A stretch of DNA of 64,000 nucleotides. Origin: Clostridiales bacterium. Lineage in GTDB: Bacteria; Bacillota; Clostridia; Christensenellales; Borkfalkiaceae. Below are positions 14,462 through 59,252 of this stretch, piece by piece. The stretch lies in assembly GCA_015055615.1 (NCBI GenBank), contig SVHT01000009.1, positions 1 through 64,000 of the forward strand, given 5' to 3'. Both the position numbers and the translations under genes were made by a program. Each line of letters begins with the position of its first letter. The first letter of the stretch is position 1. The notes beneath the pieces are model-generated. The model made no database searches. It had not been told where the DNA came from and worked only from the letters and a program-made list of their open reading frames with translations.

Positions 14462-15148
14462 ATGAAACACGGCAAGAAATATCAGGATAGCGTAAAAGCA
14501 TTTGATTTGACGAAACAGTACGAAGCTGCAGAAGCAGTAAACGTACTTTTGGAAACGGCTAAGGCAAAGTTTGACGAAACGATCGAATTGCACGTTCGTT
14601 TGGGCGTTGACCCCCGTCAGGCTGACCAACAGGTTCGTGGCGTACTCGTATTGCCCCACGGTACCGGTAAAACGAAGAGAGTTTTGGTTATCGCAAAAGG
14701 TGCGAAAGCTGACGCGGCGCAGGCTGCAGGCGCAGATTTCGTAGGCGCAGAAGAACTCATCGCAAAAATTCAGAACGAAAACTGGTTCGACTTCGACGTA
14801 ATGATCACCACCCCCGACATGATGGGTATGGTAGGTCGTATCGGTCGTGTCCTCGGTCCCAAGGGCTTGATGCCCAACCCTAAATCGGGTACGGTTACGA
14901 TGGACGTTGAAAAGGCAATCGCAGAAGTTAAAGCTGGTAAAGTTGAATACAGACTTGACAAAACTGCAATTATCCACTGCCCTATCGGTAAGAAGAGCTT
15001 TGGCGCAGAAAAGTTGGTTGAAAACTACACCGCGCTTATGGACGCAATCGTTAAGGCGAAACCCGCTGCTGCAAAAGGTACGTATCTTAAGAGCGTAACG
15101 CTTGCATCGACGATGGGCCCTGGCATCAAAGTCGTTCCCAAACTCTAA
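14462..15148 (+). CDS. rplA: 50S ribosomal protein L1
   Basis: A 228-residue uL1, the L1 stalk protein and the likely repressor of this operon through the site before rplK. Typical elements are [17 protein letters not shown] (near 42-58), LPHGTGK, and [15 protein letters not shown] near 128-142. AAGGAGG precedes the ATG and the gap from rplK is 17 bases. The gene is followed by a tandem palindromic repeat rather than directly by rplJ. Confidence 0.97.
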
Positions 15149-15149
15149 T

Positions 15150-15360
15150 TAAAACAGATATATACGGCGCAATACGTCGTCGGCGCTCGGTTGCGTACGT
15201 CTTTGTACGCGCCCTTGCGACCTTCTCGTCTTGCTTGTATCTATCCGTTTTAAGAAAAACGTATATATACGGCGTATTTCAGCGTTGCCGTTCGGTCACG
15301 TACGTCTTTGTACGCGCCCTCGCGACCTTCTTGTCTTGCTTGTATCTATCCGTTTTAAGA
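15150..15360. repeat. Tandem pair of 105-nt palindromic repeat units
   Basis: Two copies lie head to tail at a constant 105-base offset (15150-15255 and 15256-15360); TACGTCTTTGTACGCGCCCT is identical in both. Each unit begins with a TTAAAACAGATATATAC-like end and closes with GTATCTATCCGTTTTAA, its imperfect reverse complement, so each could fold into a long hairpin. An inner GCGTAC/GTACGC stem is seen in the first copy. No convincing gene lies here. It looks like a dispersed intergenic repeat inserted between rplA and rplJ. Confidence 0.75.
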
Positions 15361-17729: not shown

Positions 17730-17963
17730 TTACGAATTTGCTTTCAGCCAAGCGTCTTTTTTGTCAGCGCCCATACGGGTAATGTCTTCTTTGGTATACT
17801 TGCTTTCCGCGCCACCGTTGGTGTAAAGGAAAAAATGACCGCTTTCCGTTTGGTACAAGCTTTCTTCATAGCCCTTAGGGTCGCCGTAAACGCCAAACGT
17901 TACTTTCTTAACGAGCGTAGCCGTTGCGGTGTCGTAAACTTTTTTACAAATAATCTTTTGCAT
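17730..17963 (-). CDS. Small conserved protein of unknown function
   Basis: A 77-residue protein with the pattern KKVYDTATATLV, then ESLYQTESGHFFLYTNGGAESKY, which I recall from a widespread uncharacterised family of gut bacteria, often near mobile genes. It is probably a small beta-rich domain; the C-terminus is helical (DKKDAWLKANS). AAGGAGG precedes the ATG and a TTGACA-18-TACAAT promoter lies at 18002-18031. No named function. Confidence 0.75.
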   Translation of the reverse strand: MQKIICKKVYDTATATLVKKVTFGVYGDPKGYEESLYQTESGHFFLYTNGGAESKYTKEDITRMGADKKDAWLKANS

Positions 17964-18001
17964 AACTGCTATCCTCCTTGTTTGATTTTTTTCCGTAGAG
18001 T

Positions 18002-18031
18002 ATTGTACAACAAAGAGGAGGGACTTGTCAA
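18002..18031 (-). promoter_or_regulatory. Promoter of the 77-aa protein gene
   Basis: Minus strand TTGACA, 18 bp, TACAAT, ending 39 bases before the start codon. Confidence 0.7.
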
Positions 18032-18060
18032 CTGTGTGAAGATAAATATTATTGGAAATT

Positions 18061-18990
18061 TTAGCCGTTTACGTCGATAATTTTCCCGTTTTGTATCTTT
18101 ACGCGATAATAGGAAAGAGAAAACAGCCGTTCGGCCCTTTTACGTACCAAACCGCAGACGAGGGGGTCGTCCGTCAAAACGACGTCGATAAAATCCCCCA
18201 AAAAACCGACGATTTTGTCCTTGTCGGGCGCTAACTCGTCCGAGAGGAAATCGGCGTAATCCGCCCCGATTAACACACTCTCAAAAAAGGCGTAGGCAAG
18301 TAAATCGTCGGGGATTTGCAAGGCGTTTTTACCGTCCGTTGCTTGCGCGCTCGCGCGGGCGCGCAAAGAAAATTCCGTCCTTTGAAAATCGCCACTTAAA
18401 GACCAAGCGCAAACCGCCGTTCTGCCCAAACGCTCGGATAAAGGCAATTCCGCGCGCAAGATTTCCCCCGAAAGGGTGTAGGACAAAACGTGTTCGTCCA
18501 AAACCCTTTCGCCGTTTTTGCGGAAAACGAGTAGGCGTTTGCCCGCGCGCGTGTTCCCGCTAAGCGCGATATATTCGCCGTGGATTTCCGTGTTGGGCTC
18601 GCAAAAGGTAGGGGGAAGGTATGCGGTGAAAGCATACTCGGGCGATTCAACCGCGAGTTGTAGCTGTCCTTGCGAAAAGAGGGTAAAAAGGGTATCGTCC
18701 AACCGTTTTTGCCACAAGGTCTTTAAGGTAAAATCGGTGGGGATAAACTCCGCGGCGTAGATAGCAATACCGTCGGCAAGCAGATACACTTCGCAATGTA
18801 ATGGCGGGGAAAAGCGGATATTATCCGTCAAAAAGAAAGTGACGGGCAGGGCGTTTTCGGGTAAGAATTCCACGAAAACGTTATCTTTTAACGAAATTTC
18901 GGCGTAGCGTTCAAAACGGTCGGTCATACCGAAAAAGACCCCGCCGAGGCGCAGAGCGCAAGGGATAGCAGATAAAAAATAAATTTTCAT
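18061..18990 (-). CDS. Hypothetical protein, 309 aa
   Basis: Not recognised. It opens MKIYFLSAIPCALRLGGVFFG, moderately hydrophobic but with no clear signal-cleavage site, followed by a beta-rich section (ISLKDNVFVEFLPEN, PVTFFLTD) to about residue 230 and a more helical C-terminus (LLAYAFFESVLIGADYADFLSDEL). No transmembrane helices beyond the possible N-terminal one. AGGA lies six bases before the ATG. It is divergently arranged with the Myb-like coiled-coil gene at 19085, with 94 bases between the starts, so the two may be coregulated. Confidence 0.7.
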   Translation of the reverse strand: MKIYFLSAIPCALRLGGVFFGMTDRFERYAEISLKDNVFVEFLPENALPVTFFLTDNIRFSPPLHCEVYLLADGIAIYAAEFIPTDFTLKTLWQKRLDDTLFTLFSQGQLQLAVESPEYAFTAYLPPTFCEPNTEIHGEYIALSGNTRAGKRLLVFRKNGERVLDEHVLSYTLSGEILRAELPLSERLGRTAVCAWSLSGDFQRTEFSLRARASAQATDGKNALQIPDDLLAYAFFESVLIGADYADFLSDELAPDKDKIVGFLGDFIDVVLTDDPLVCGLVRKRAERLFSLSYYRVKIQNGKIIDVNG

Positions 18991-57005: not shown

Positions 57006-57269
57006 CTACTTATCTGTTAAAATATCCATAGCCAAACGAAAGGCAGTTTTAAAAGCGGTGCGGTATACCTCGGCGTCAAAGTCGCATTGCATGGCGTTAT
57101 TCTTTTCCTCATAGACAAAAAACAGCGCTTTTTGTTTATCGGATAACGTGGAAAGTAGGTTTTGATAAGCAAGAAGAACGCTGTTATGCGCGTCGCCCTT
57201 TTTATGCAAAAGAAGTTCTTCGTTTTCTTCCAACTCCGTATAATACAACGTTTTTAAAATATCTTTCAT
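57006..57269 (-). CDS. DUF6809-like small protein
   Basis: An 87-residue, all-helical protein: MKDILKTLYYTELEENEELL, then AYQNLLSTLSDKQKALFFVYEEKNN and AFKTAFRLAMDILTD. The layout (short ILxxLYYG-like start, KALFxxxEE helix, FxxAFRLAxxIL end) matches the DUF6809 family often found on mobile elements of Clostridia. Its promoter is covered by the palindromic operator of the divergent Xre gene, so it is likely the regulator's target. Function unknown. Confidence 0.72.
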   Translation of the reverse strand: MKDILKTLYYTELEENEELLLHKKGDAHNSVLLAYQNLLSTLSDKQKALFFVYEEKNNAMQCDFDAEVYRTAFKTAFRLAMDILTDK

Positions 57270-57301
57270 AGGTAGTCCTGCCCTTGCAATTAGATAAAAA
57301 T

Positions 57302-57330
57302 ATTATACTACCCAAAATGGGTATTGTCAA
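57302..57330 (-). promoter_or_regulatory. Consensus promoter for the DUF6809-like gene
   Basis: Minus strand TTGACA (57330-57325), 17 bp, TATAAT (57307-57302). Perfect consensus, overlaid by the operator. Confidence 0.88.
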
Positions 57331-57345
57331 CCCATTTTGGGTAGT
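57307..57345. promoter_or_regulatory. Double palindromic operator of the Xre regulator
   Basis: ACTACCCAAAATGGGT (57307-57322) and its exact reverse complement (57330-57345) are 7 bases apart. Each half is itself a near-palindrome ACCCAAAATGGGT, so two dimers could bind side by side. The sites flank the -35 of the leftward promoter; a rightward extended -10, TGGTAAAAT, lies at 57349-57357. Confidence 0.88.
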
Positions 57346-57374
57346 ATGTGGTAAAATATTTTTAGAGGTGTATT

Positions 57375-57575
57375 ATGAAATTTTGTGAAAGATTGAAAGC
57401 GGTTAGAATAGAGTGTGATTTATTGCAGAAGGACGTTTGCGAAAGGTTGGGGGTTTCGGCGAATTGCTATGCGAGTTACGAGCAAGGTCGGACAGAACCG
57501 AGTTTAGAAATGCTGAAACGGTTATGTAAGCTGTTTGACGTTAGCGCGGATTATTTACTTGGATTGAGCGATTGA
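57375..57575 (+). CDS. Xre-family HTH regulator
   Basis: A 66-residue Cro/CI-type regulator: RLKAVRIECDLLQKDVCERL, recognition helix region GVSANCYASYEQGRTEPSLE, and LCKLFDVSADYLLGLSD. It is a single HTH domain without a sensor. AGAGGTG precedes the ATG. It stands divergent to the DUF6809-like gene across a strong palindrome and should repress both itself and that gene. Confidence 0.9.
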   Translation: MKFCERLKAVRIECDLLQKDVCERLGVSANCYASYEQGRTEPSLEMLKRLCKLFDVSADYLLGLSD

Positions 57576-57608
57576 AAATGACTTCTATTGTGACCGTAAA
57601 GAAAGAGC

Positions 57609-57653
57609 TGTGTCATACCGACCGAGCAAACGCGAGTGGAGCGTATCTAAAAA
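57609..57653 (+). repeat. Left direct repeat of the GIY-YIG cassette (DR1)
   Basis: 45 bases starting TGTGTCATACCGACCGAGCA, ending just before the GIY-YIG start codon. It differs from DR2 (58061-58105) at one position. In the middle GACCGAGCAAACGCGAGTGG has imperfect hairpin potential. Confidence 0.88.
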
Positions 57654-57654
57654 T

Positions 57655-57939
57655 ATGAAACAATATTACGTATATATATTGACCAATAAAACGAACAAAG
57701 TTTTATATATTGGCATAACAAATGACTTGGCTCGGCGAGTATATCAGCATAAAAATAAAGAAGTGGAAGGATTTACGGCAAAATATAACGTTGATAAATT
57801 AGTATATTTTGAAACAACAACGGACGTAAACGCTGCAATCGAGAGAGAAAAAGTATTAAAGAAATGGTCTCGAAGAAAAAAGGATTGGTTGATTGCGTTG
57901 AATAATCCTTCGTGGGAAGAAATCAGCGTGGATAATTAG
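57655..57939 (+). CDS. Small GIY-YIG nuclease-domain protein
   Basis: A 94-residue protein that is a single GIY-YIG domain of the UPF0213/YhbQ-like kind. YYVYILTNKTNKVLYIGITN (4-23) carries the two GIY/YIG tyrosines, LARRVYQHK (25-33) the arginine and histidine, and AAIEREKVLKKWSRRKK the metal-binding glutamate. The fold cuts DNA in several families; small solitary members are unassigned. The ATG at 57655 immediately follows the direct repeat DR1, with only GAGTGGAG within it as a possible ribosome site. The gene is bracketed by direct and inverted copies of the repeat, suggesting a mobile or repeat-linked cassette. Confidence 0.85.
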   Translation: MKQYYVYILTNKTNKVLYIGITNDLARRVYQHKNKEVEGFTAKYNVDKLVYFETTTDVNAAIEREKVLKKWSRRKKDWLIALNNPSWEEISVDN

Positions 57940-57980
57940 AGATACACTCGACTGCGGCTACGCCTCCGCTCGGTATGACG
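57938..57980 (-). repeat. Inverted copy of the cassette repeat
   Basis: Begins AGATACACTCGACTGCGG and ends CCGCTCGGTATGACG; on the other strand this is the same element as DR1 with a changed centre. So the GIY-YIG gene has inverted repeats at its two ends. Confidence 0.75.
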
Positions 57981-58044
57981 TGGTGAGATGGGGCTACGCC
58001 TCCGCTCGGTATGACGTGGTGAGATGGGACCACGCCTCCGCTGG
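57958..58044 (+). repeat. 36-bp tandem repeats
   Basis: CTACGCCTCCGCTCGGTATG starts at 57958 and 57994, and a diverging copy at 58030, giving a 36-base period with GACGTGGTGAGATGGGG as the rest of the unit. The units contain the inner half of the cassette's inverted repeat. Confidence 0.85.
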
Positions 58045-58060
58045 GAAATAGTCTGCTACT

Positions 58061-58105
58061 TGTGTCATACCGACCGAGCAAACGCGAGTGGAGTGTATCT
58101 AAAAA
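58061..58105 (+). repeat. Right direct repeat of the cassette (DR2)
   Basis: Copy of DR1 with one base change, 452 bp away, lying 20 bases before the aldo/keto reductase gene. Confidence 0.88.
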
Positions 58106-58124
58106 ATAATACAAAGGTAACAAT

Positions 58125-59252
58125 ATGATTTATAAGAATTTCCAAGACAAAAAATTGTCCTTTTTGGGTATGGGTTGTATGCGTTTTCCGACGGTGGACG
58201 GGAATATCGCAAACGTCGATATGGAAAAGACGGCGGAAATTTTCGATTACGCCATCAAAAACGGCGTCAATTATTTTGATACCGCGTGGGGCTACCACAA
58301 CGGTCAATCGGAAATCGTCACGGGTAAAATTTTATCCAAATACCCCCGCGATAGCTATTATCTCGCCGATAAATTCCCCGGGTACGATTTGGCGAATATG
58401 GACAAAGTGGAAGAAATTTTTGAAAAACAGCTCGAAAAAACGGGCGTTGAGTATTTCGATTTTTACTTAATCCACAACGTCTGCGAACGGAACGTCAACG
58501 AATATCTCGACGAAAAATACCGCATTTTCAAGCATTTGGTTGCGCAAAAAGAAAACGGGCGTATTAAGCACCTCGGCTTTTCCGCGCACGCCGATATCCC
58601 CGCCTTAAAACGCTTTTTGGAAAAATACGGCCACGCCATGGAGTTTTGTCAGCTCCAAATTAATTGGGTGGATTGGTCCTTTCAGCGCGCGAAGGAAAAA
58701 GTGGAACTGCTAAAAGCGTACAATATTCCCGTGTGGGTAATGGAGCCCGTCCGTGGTGGCAAGCTTGCGCGCCTTTCGCCCAAGCACGAGGCGAAATTAA
58801 AGGCGCTCCGTCCCGATGAAAGCGTCGCGGCGTGGTGTTTCCGTTTTTTACAGACGGCGCTCGATTGCAAGGTGGTTTTGTCGGGAATGTCCGATATGTC
58901 GCAGGTGCAAGACAACGTCAAAACTTGCGCGGAAGAAAAGCCGTTGACGGCGGAAGAACTCCGCGTTTTGCAGGAAATTACAGCGGAAATGATGACGGAT
59001 AGCGTGCCTTGTACGGCGTGTCGCTACTGCACGGAATACTGCCCGCAGGGGCTGAATATTCCCGAACTTTTAGAGCTGTATAACGAGCATAAATTTACGG
59101 GCGGTGGGTTTATTTCGCCCATGCGTATCAGCGTAATGCCCGAGGATAAACGTCCGTCCGCGTGTTTGGGCTGTCGGGCGTGCGAAGAGGTTTGCCCGCA
59201 GAAAATCAAGATTGCCGACGTTTTGGCGGCGTATGCGGAGCTACTCAAATGA
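58125..59252 (+). CDS. Aldo/keto reductase with 4Fe-4S domain
   Basis: A 375-residue protein. Residues 1-275 are an aldo/keto reductase barrel with the catalytic set in GVNYFDTAWGYHNGQSE (Asp, Tyr), ADKFPG (Lys) and FYLIHNV (His). The C-terminus holds two iron-sulfur motifs, CTACRYCTEYCP near 295 and CLGCRACEEVCP near 347, as in clostridial ferredoxin-coupled reductases. It overlaps the DUF1893 gene by four bases. A possible ribosome site AAAGGTAA lies before the ATG. Substrate unknown. Confidence 0.93.
   Translation: MIYKNFQDKKLSFLGMGCMRFPTVDGNIANVDMEKTAEIFDYAIKNGVNYFDTAWGYHNGQSEIVTGKILSKYPRDSYYLADKFPGYDLANMDKVEEIFEKQLEKTGVEYFDFYLIHNVCERNVNEYLDEKYRIFKHLVAQKENGRIKHLGFSAHADIPALKRFLEKYGHAMEFCQLQINWVDWSFQRAKEKVELLKAYNIPVWVMEPVRGGKLARLSPKHEAKLKALRPDESVAAWCFRFLQTALDCKVVLSGMSDMSQVQDNVKTCAEEKPLTAEELRVLQEITAEMMTDSVPCTACRYCTEYCPQGLNIPELLELYNEHKFTGGGFISPMRISVMPEDKRPSACLGCRACEEVCPQKIKIADVLAAYAELLK

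Follow-up and report, generated by a model that had tools for sequence, protein, structure and literature searches.

A small GIY-YIG nuclease gene and the palindromic repeats on either side of it probably constitute a minimal REP-ended mobile element, a reading to which we give about two chances in three. Two unlike, inverted hairpin ends of the GTCAT/CGTC type would enclose the nuclease as sole gene, in a counterpart of the RAYT REPtron. Sequence comparison establishes the bracketing of such genes across phyla; the covariation of the repeat stems; the agreement of protein lineage with repeat class; the common borders of two gene copies and many gene-less units; and the presence or absence of the cassette among sister species. 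From these comparisons we infer that the nuclease itself would cut and move the unit.

The window is the whole stretch of DNA analysed (64,000 nucleotides), and the block in question lies at 57609-58105. The initial annotation described a 94-residue solo GIY-YIG gene following a 45-bp repeat. This description holds: the gene (57655..57939, + strand; Pfam PF01541, E 1.3e-19) has its ATG at 57655, one base past the first 45-bp copy, and its stop codon at 57937-57939. The direct copies (57609-57653 and 58061-58105) differ by the one mismatch reported for the closing copy. The left-end repeat (57612..57648, + strand) consists of the GTC tag, ATAC, an inner part, GTAT, and the tail CT; ATAC and GTAT form the outer stem, and the tag faces away from the gene. 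The second left-end repeat (58064..58100, + strand; repeat family D1) has one mismatch to the first across the 45-bp copy.

The right-end repeat (40 bp; 57940..57979, - strand) abuts the stop codon. It is inverted, as the annotation had it, but is a second type of end and no plain copy of the left one: both have the outer letters GTCATACCGA...GTATCT, whereas the inner part differs. The gene lies between two unlike hairpin ends of one family, whose GTCAT tags (in the form TGTCAT...GTATCT) turn their GTC outward. By analogy with the unit borders in a Moraniibacteriota bin (below), the proposed gene-bearing unit would span 368 bp from tag to tag (57612..57979, + strand). The "two to three" 36-bp tandem units noted earlier are two full units and a partial third (57953..58045, - strand; families D2 and D3), which comprise the right end's inner and outer part: 57953-57988 and 57989-58024 (97%), then 58025-58045 (81%, 21 bases).

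Hairpin folding, a check that the annotation had proposed, gave a divided answer: as DNA, the single 45-nt repeat folds no better than its shuffles (z -0.38), and the 175-nt block folds better (z -3.5), as inverted copies would in any case. The evidence for hairpins therefore rests on stem covariation. A described RNA was considered and rejected, in that Rfam returned three matches up to E 1 over 57300-58200, none near its gathering score and none on the repeat block. Elsewhere in the window, an inverted repeat (57305-57347) with perfectly matching 18-bp arms and a 7-bp centre separates the divergent genes 57375-57575 (+) and 57006-57269 (-), one encoding a Cro/C1-type helix-turn-helix protein and one a DUF6809 protein; it is likely an operator. 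A 105-bp tandem duplication, its second copy 85% identical, occupies 15146-15355.

The window's genome is a 1.69-Mb draft, 94% complete. Repeats beyond the block had been anticipated, and six credible copies occur at five other places (E below 0.002). Left ends recur at C6:24597, C1:164702, and C4:15761 (contig and position), and right ends at C6:24681, C7:62599, and C7:101883. The pair at C6:24597-24730 joins a left and a right end, of the kinds found in the block, across a short spacer that stands where the gene would be. A pattern scan allowing up to two mismatches found 23 places, against 10 for the reversed control; many pattern matches therefore are due to chance, and the E-scored copies form the credible list. 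Apart from the solo gene, PF01541 matches once in the genome, in a frame of 609 aa that is presumably UvrC; the Y1 transposase (PF01797) has no match.

A solitary GIY-YIG domain

The window protein is a GIY-YIG domain alone, above the PF01541 cut-off and with no further DNA-binding module. Among 41 chosen sequences 15 columns are invariant, including Y7, Y18, G20, R28, H32, E65, and N84; we take Y7, Y18, R28, E65, and N84 to be the active site. The structure model is confident (mean pLDDT 92.9). By both sequence and fold, the closest solved structure is UPF0213 protein BH0048 (1zg2; E 6.5e-5). Next, both above E 0.001, come Slx1, solved in a complex with Slx4 and said to process branched DNA, and UvrC. 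Relatives carry the database labels "GIY-YIG nuclease family protein," "hypothetical protein," and "excinuclease ABC subunit C." Purifying selection acts on the solo protein: the seven pairs for which dN/dS was computable gave 0.02-0.21, and three saturated pairs gave a pN/pS of 0.07-0.18.

Much the same traces might be left by a repair or hairpin-resolving nuclease that has been domesticated. Such an enzyme would control the repeats, the adjacent repeats would regulate its gene, and neither would move now. The selection on the protein and the place of the branched-DNA nuclease Slx1 among its nearest folds accord with this, as does the upstream repeat in the window, which occupies the position expected of the gene's ribosome site. 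Nevertheless, it is a highly improbable account, given that the gene is distributed patchily (in 33 of the 251 genomes of the family), resides also on replicons deposited as plasmids, occurs as two dispersed copies in one genome, and is missing with its cassette from near sisters in Azospirillum.

Tagged hairpins and protein lineage

Relatives were examined in two sets. Eighty named loci, fetched by protein similarity alone, are the best 80 of 339 confirmed; the family set comprises 30 loci, window included, from the 33 of 251 family genomes that have the solo gene. The scan looked within 300 bp of the gene for a GTCAT tag leading into a hairpin, with the tag's AT as the start of a stem of at least 5 bp. 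Such hairpins accompany 74 of the 80 named loci and 25 of the 30 family loci, compared with 2-9 and 0-1, respectively, in five dinucleotide shuffles of the loci, and with 0-9 and 0-4 when eight other head words replaced GTCAT. With a minimum stem of 4 the counts rise to 76 and 29 (shuffles, 13-21 and 4-9). Thus, the clustering of repeats around solo GIY-YIG genes, for which the annotation had asked, is borne out at 74 of 80 loci in 21 named phyla. The 80 loci represent 22 named phyla plus seven unplaced loci; the number falls to 21 because the sole Kerfeldiibacteriota locus has no motif at stem 5. Six named and five family loci lack the motif at that length. The window's own locus is among the latter: its copies have an uninterrupted outer stem of 4 bp, and it therefore scores at minimum stem 4 and not at 5.

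The motif belongs to the gene's immediate surroundings. Its density is 7.5 per kb within 150 bp of the gene and falls to 0.2-0.3 per kb beyond 600 bp. More than 1.5 kb away in the same 80 loci, it occurs at 64 of 347 other genes of at least 100 aa and in 29 of 227 intergenic gaps of at least 60 bp. Orientation of the nearest upstream motif is clear (51 +, 15 -, 14 without); downstream it is weaker (34 -, 20 +, 26 without). The complete "+ gene -" arrangement is present in 24 of the 80 named loci, and in seven of the 80 the reading frame meets an early stop. YhbQ-type GIY-YIG genes served as a control family (present in 66 of 199 phylum genomes; 30 loci read), and the motif was found at 2 of their 30 loci with a minimum stem of 5 and at 6 with a minimum of 4; the Escherichia coli yhbQ locus lacks it.

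Relatives of the gene also occur in 34 records of a plasmid collection. Ten of the 12 plasmid loci read have a [G/C]TCAT hairpin within 400 bp, in a setting that includes the CCTC tag form and carries no shuffle control. Several of these loci are near-copies, and the Spirosoma locus is mixed with chance-like matches; the Sphingobium (L196) and Novosphingobium (L258) plasmid loci yielded no tag hairpin. In Planktothrix agardhii plasmid p1 (L195, 1684-2600), tag repeats lie on both sides of the GIY-YIG gene, and the neighbours of this cassette are an MmeI-type restriction-modification gene and the DISARM gene drmA. A phage collection gave partial matches in 10 Rhizobium phage records. DUF559 nucleases were considered as a second repeat-linked family and set aside: five loci contained no credible tag repeat, only two chance-like matches.

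Stem pairing was evaluated between the gene's closest GTCAT and the ATC[T/C] that follows it, without demanding that the letters between them pair; 99 of 110 loci have this form. The three inner stem letters are fully paired in 74 of the 99, compared with a mean of 15.2 and a maximum of 27 when partners were swapped between loci (1000 shuffles), and twelve kinds of triplet pair occur. Judged by these pairings, the repeat stems co-vary. In 40 of the 74 paired loci the next two letters form tandem G-A mismatches (GA opposite GA). Two forms of stem occur: some are perfect, and others have a short outer stem that gives way to a mismatch zone. Of 225 motifs near genes, 129 contain CGNAG and 35 contain GCGNAGC, a sequence that forms a DNA hairpin of unusual stability. 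The stem is preceded by TGTC or another NGTC. In 29 of 47 loci the base before GTC does not vary within the locus, against a mean of 12.8 and a maximum of 20 in shuffles; this exceeds chance, so the base is probably part of the element. Neighbouring motif pairs distant from the gene (n = 49) are tag-outward in 28 cases, tag-inward in 12, and direct in 9.

Repeat class could be labelled at 103 of 110 loci (the seven unlabelled were left out of the class test): 28 have a perfect stem of 7 bp or more, and 75, including the window, have a short stem with mismatches. In the protein tree (FastTree; 140 rows, 96 columns; many inner forks open), a single branch with support 100 parts the 110 solo-family rows from 30 YhbQ-type rows. 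Over the 74 named loci, repeat class changes eight times on this tree. Free shuffling of the classes gave a mean of 22.7 changes (minimum 16), and shuffling within phyla a mean of 15.7 (minimum 11); none of 300 within-phylum shuffles was as low as 8. By this measure, repeat class tracks the protein tree and not the host phylum. Such agreement argues for specific recognition of the repeat by the protein.

Possible signs of movement

One Moraniibacteriota bin contains two copies of the gene, 96% identical over 357 columns, in unrelated flanks. Homology extends from about T-GTCATCCCGGGC to a few bases beyond GCCGGAATGAC-A, and the right repeat includes the end of the reading frame. These joint ends in unrelated flanks support the earlier suggestion that gene and repeats may travel as one unit. 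A search of the same bin with the left repeat, allowing three mismatches, gave 22 matches (reversed control, 0). They represent 20 distinct units, because two of the 22 rows are units seen from their other side: two units have the gene, and 18 are gene-less with like ends, the gene taking the spacer's place. Of the gene-less units, 16 measure 97-99 bp, one 77, and one 125; two have a variant right end. T precedes GTC and A follows GAC in all 22 rows, and no target duplication was seen in any of them. A DNA search with one unit returned 16 further long matches: ten start and end within three bases of its borders, five extend 6-18 bases further, and one stops 15 short. A search for genus relatives returned only the bin itself.

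An empty site in relatives, also sought by the annotation, was found at species level in Azospirillum. In A. lipoferum 4B the cassette, with repeats on either side of the gene, lies between sufB and sufC in a gap of 617 bp. The corresponding gaps in A. ramasamyi, A. oryzae, and Azospirillum sp. B510 are 91, 87, and 129 bp, respectively, and hold neither gene nor repeat, so cassette and repeats probably came or went together. These three are about 95-97% identical to A. lipoferum around the cassette; the spacer itself has diverged, and the joints therefore are not exact. A. argentinense lacks the cassette by alignment coordinates. In Shinella sp. PSBB067 the same spacer contains a cassette whose repeats differ and whose protein is 48% identical; it seems to have arrived separately. 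(In a Sphingomonas the sufB-sufC spacer contains a gene for a DUF559 nuclease, and in a Paracoccus a small gene with a heavy-metal-binding domain [L140, L193, L266, L267]; the spacer is possibly an insertion hot spot.)

No filled and empty pair was found at strain level. Four 50-kb stretches of Sinorhizobium meliloti pSymB have three motif matches each, and the one repeat pair read (L262) displayed no presence/absence difference in the alignments. A 292-bp presence/absence difference does separate two of these strains (L263, about 17872-18164; L265, about 17931-18223); it is not a tag repeat, and on the L265 side it ends just before an ltrA reverse transcriptase gene. The Sinorhizobium units may resemble RIME elements.

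Across the 251 family genomes, the core GTCATNNYGASCG occurs a median of 43 times in the 33 gene-bearing genomes, compared with 5 times in the other 218 (p 2e-8, a guide only, as the genomes are related). This correlation does not tell cause from consequence. Three gene-bearing genomes have no core of the pattern used. The annotation had counted against its own proposal the occurrence of many repeats near unrelated genes in relatives without any GIY-YIG gene, and to a degree such relatives exist: 17 gene-less family genomes have at least 30 cores. Each has one PF01541 match, in a frame of about 600-700 aa presumed to be UvrC; none has a solo GIY-YIG match above the cut-off, and one has an additional match below it. 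Nine genomes of the window's family (G128, G199, G185, G145, G204, G206, G150, G170, and G224) have 40 to 120 cores, no solo GIY-YIG gene, and no Y1 match.

The repeats could be moved by a different transposase, such as a Y1/RAYT enzyme that acts in trans, while the GIY-YIG gene rides between them. Y1 matches occur in 8 of the 17 REP-rich gene-less genomes, and there is one in the Moraniibacteriota bin. However, Y1 is absent from the window's genome and from 17 of the 18 gene-bearing genomes tested, and none of the seven Y1 loci read has a credible tag repeat (two matches, at 248 and 305 bp, resemble chance ones). Y1/RAYT thus is not supported as the mobiliser. A passenger gene also fits poorly with the purifying selection on the protein and with a repeat class that follows the GIY-YIG tree; moreover, PMC3733652 ties no transposase gene to CGTC repeats. 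We regard such a passenger as improbable.

The strongest rival, though itself unlikely, draws on the fact that GIY-YIG enzymes are classic homing endonucleases. The gene's product would cut repeat pairs, the gene would be copied into their spacers by way of the repeats as homology arms, and something else would move the repeats and the gene-less pairs. The Moraniibacteriota gene, which replaces the spacer between like ends, is as expected; the correlation of gene and repeat number fits equally well, and the REP-rich genomes without the gene fit too. The sister Azospirillum spacers hold neither gene nor repeats, which would call for two steps, and the spread of the repeats themselves is left unexplained.

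If instead the nuclease drives its own unit, it would recognise its cognate repeat folded as a hairpin (in single strand at a fork, or as a cruciform) and cut near the GTC tag. The freed or copied unit would then enter a new site through the replication or repair of the host. Joining is assigned to the host because GIY-YIG enzymes hydrolyse DNA and are not known to join it; the absence of target duplications fits repair-type joining. The gene-bearing unit and gene-less left-right pairs would be moved alike. The nuclease would thereby do for CGTC-type REPs what RAYT is thought to do for GTAG REPs.

Relation to known repeat systems

The initial annotation likened the block to a RAYT REPtron. The likeness holds for architecture: in REPtrons (RAYT, or TnpA-REP), too, one small nuclease gene sits beside inverted tagged palindromes, which are dispersed as singles and tag-outward pairs. 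It fails for enzyme and tag, which here are GIY-YIG and GTCAT/CGTC, whereas RAYT is a Y1 HUH enzyme and its REPs carry GTAG. Perfect and interrupted stems go with enzyme groups in both systems, for RAYT according to PMC8266576 and for GIY-YIG according to the tree. The paper states that evidence of mobility is lacking for tnpA-REP; the GIY-YIG gene, in contrast, occurs in two dispersed copies in one genome. The element can be set apart from REPtrons, since HUH enzyme and GTAG tag were both looked for and neither was found, although a stricter reading could treat it as a variant of the REPtron idea.

The CGTC REP superfamily is closer in sequence. As described by Di Nocera et al. 2013 (PMC3733652), these repeats have a CGTC, TGTC, or CCTC tag, AT pairs that start the stem, a stem of 8-9 bp, a loop of 4-5, a short unpaired tail, and a predominance of HH dimers; the paper reports no association with transposase genes. 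In the window and its relatives, likewise, AT forms the first stem pairs after the tag, and the perfect-stem loci match the superfamily's form. Dispersed copies and tag-outward pairs prevail here as well, if tag-outward is equated with HH, which is our own reading of that account. Unlike the 8-9-bp stems, many loci here, the window included, have a short outer stem and then a G-A mismatch zone, and all were found through a nuclease gene. In the same paper, the count of intragenic repeats omitted hypothetical proteins under 120 aa, and excinuclease ABC proteins are among the REP-carrying genes.

Other comparisons are more distant. Gene-less left-right units of about 98 bp recall REPINs and MITE-like units, but here the like ends are common to gene-bearing GIY-YIG copies in the same genome. 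Free-standing and intron-encoded GIY-YIG homing endonucleases have the same catalytic domain in a small mobile gene, whereas the solo protein has no added DNA-binding module and is flanked by tagged hairpins. UPF0213/YhbQ supplies the nearest solved relative (BH0048, 1zg2), yet it falls on the other side of the tree (support 100), with the motif at 2 of 30 loci. Among the open-access titles and beginnings of abstracts listed, none ties GIY-YIG genes to such repeats, and a word search of the 2025 RepRanger paper (PMC12306157) gave no hit for GIY, endonuclease, or RAYT.

The nuclease-linked REP system first suggested for this block thus is upheld in part, by the clustering, the joint ends, the absence of the cassette from sisters, and the dispersed copies. 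A wider proposal is evenly balanced between true and false: that these units form a class of transposable elements in some twenty phyla, with a GIY-YIG nuclease as sole gene and GTCAT/CGTC hairpin ends; that the CGTC REP superfamily has in this class its missing source and mobiliser; and that its enzyme lineages have co-evolved with perfect-stem and G-A-mismatch repeats.

Two puzzles meet here: a superfamily of palindromic repeats reported in PMC3733652 as being without a dedicated transposase, and a widespread, vaguely annotated family of solo GIY-YIG genes. If the link is causal, a mobile element would be driven by a type of enzyme that is not known to drive one by itself. At under 400 bp, the element would then be among the smallest autonomous ones. 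Moreover, it would offer an enzyme-substrate pair whose many natural variants could serve to study specificity.
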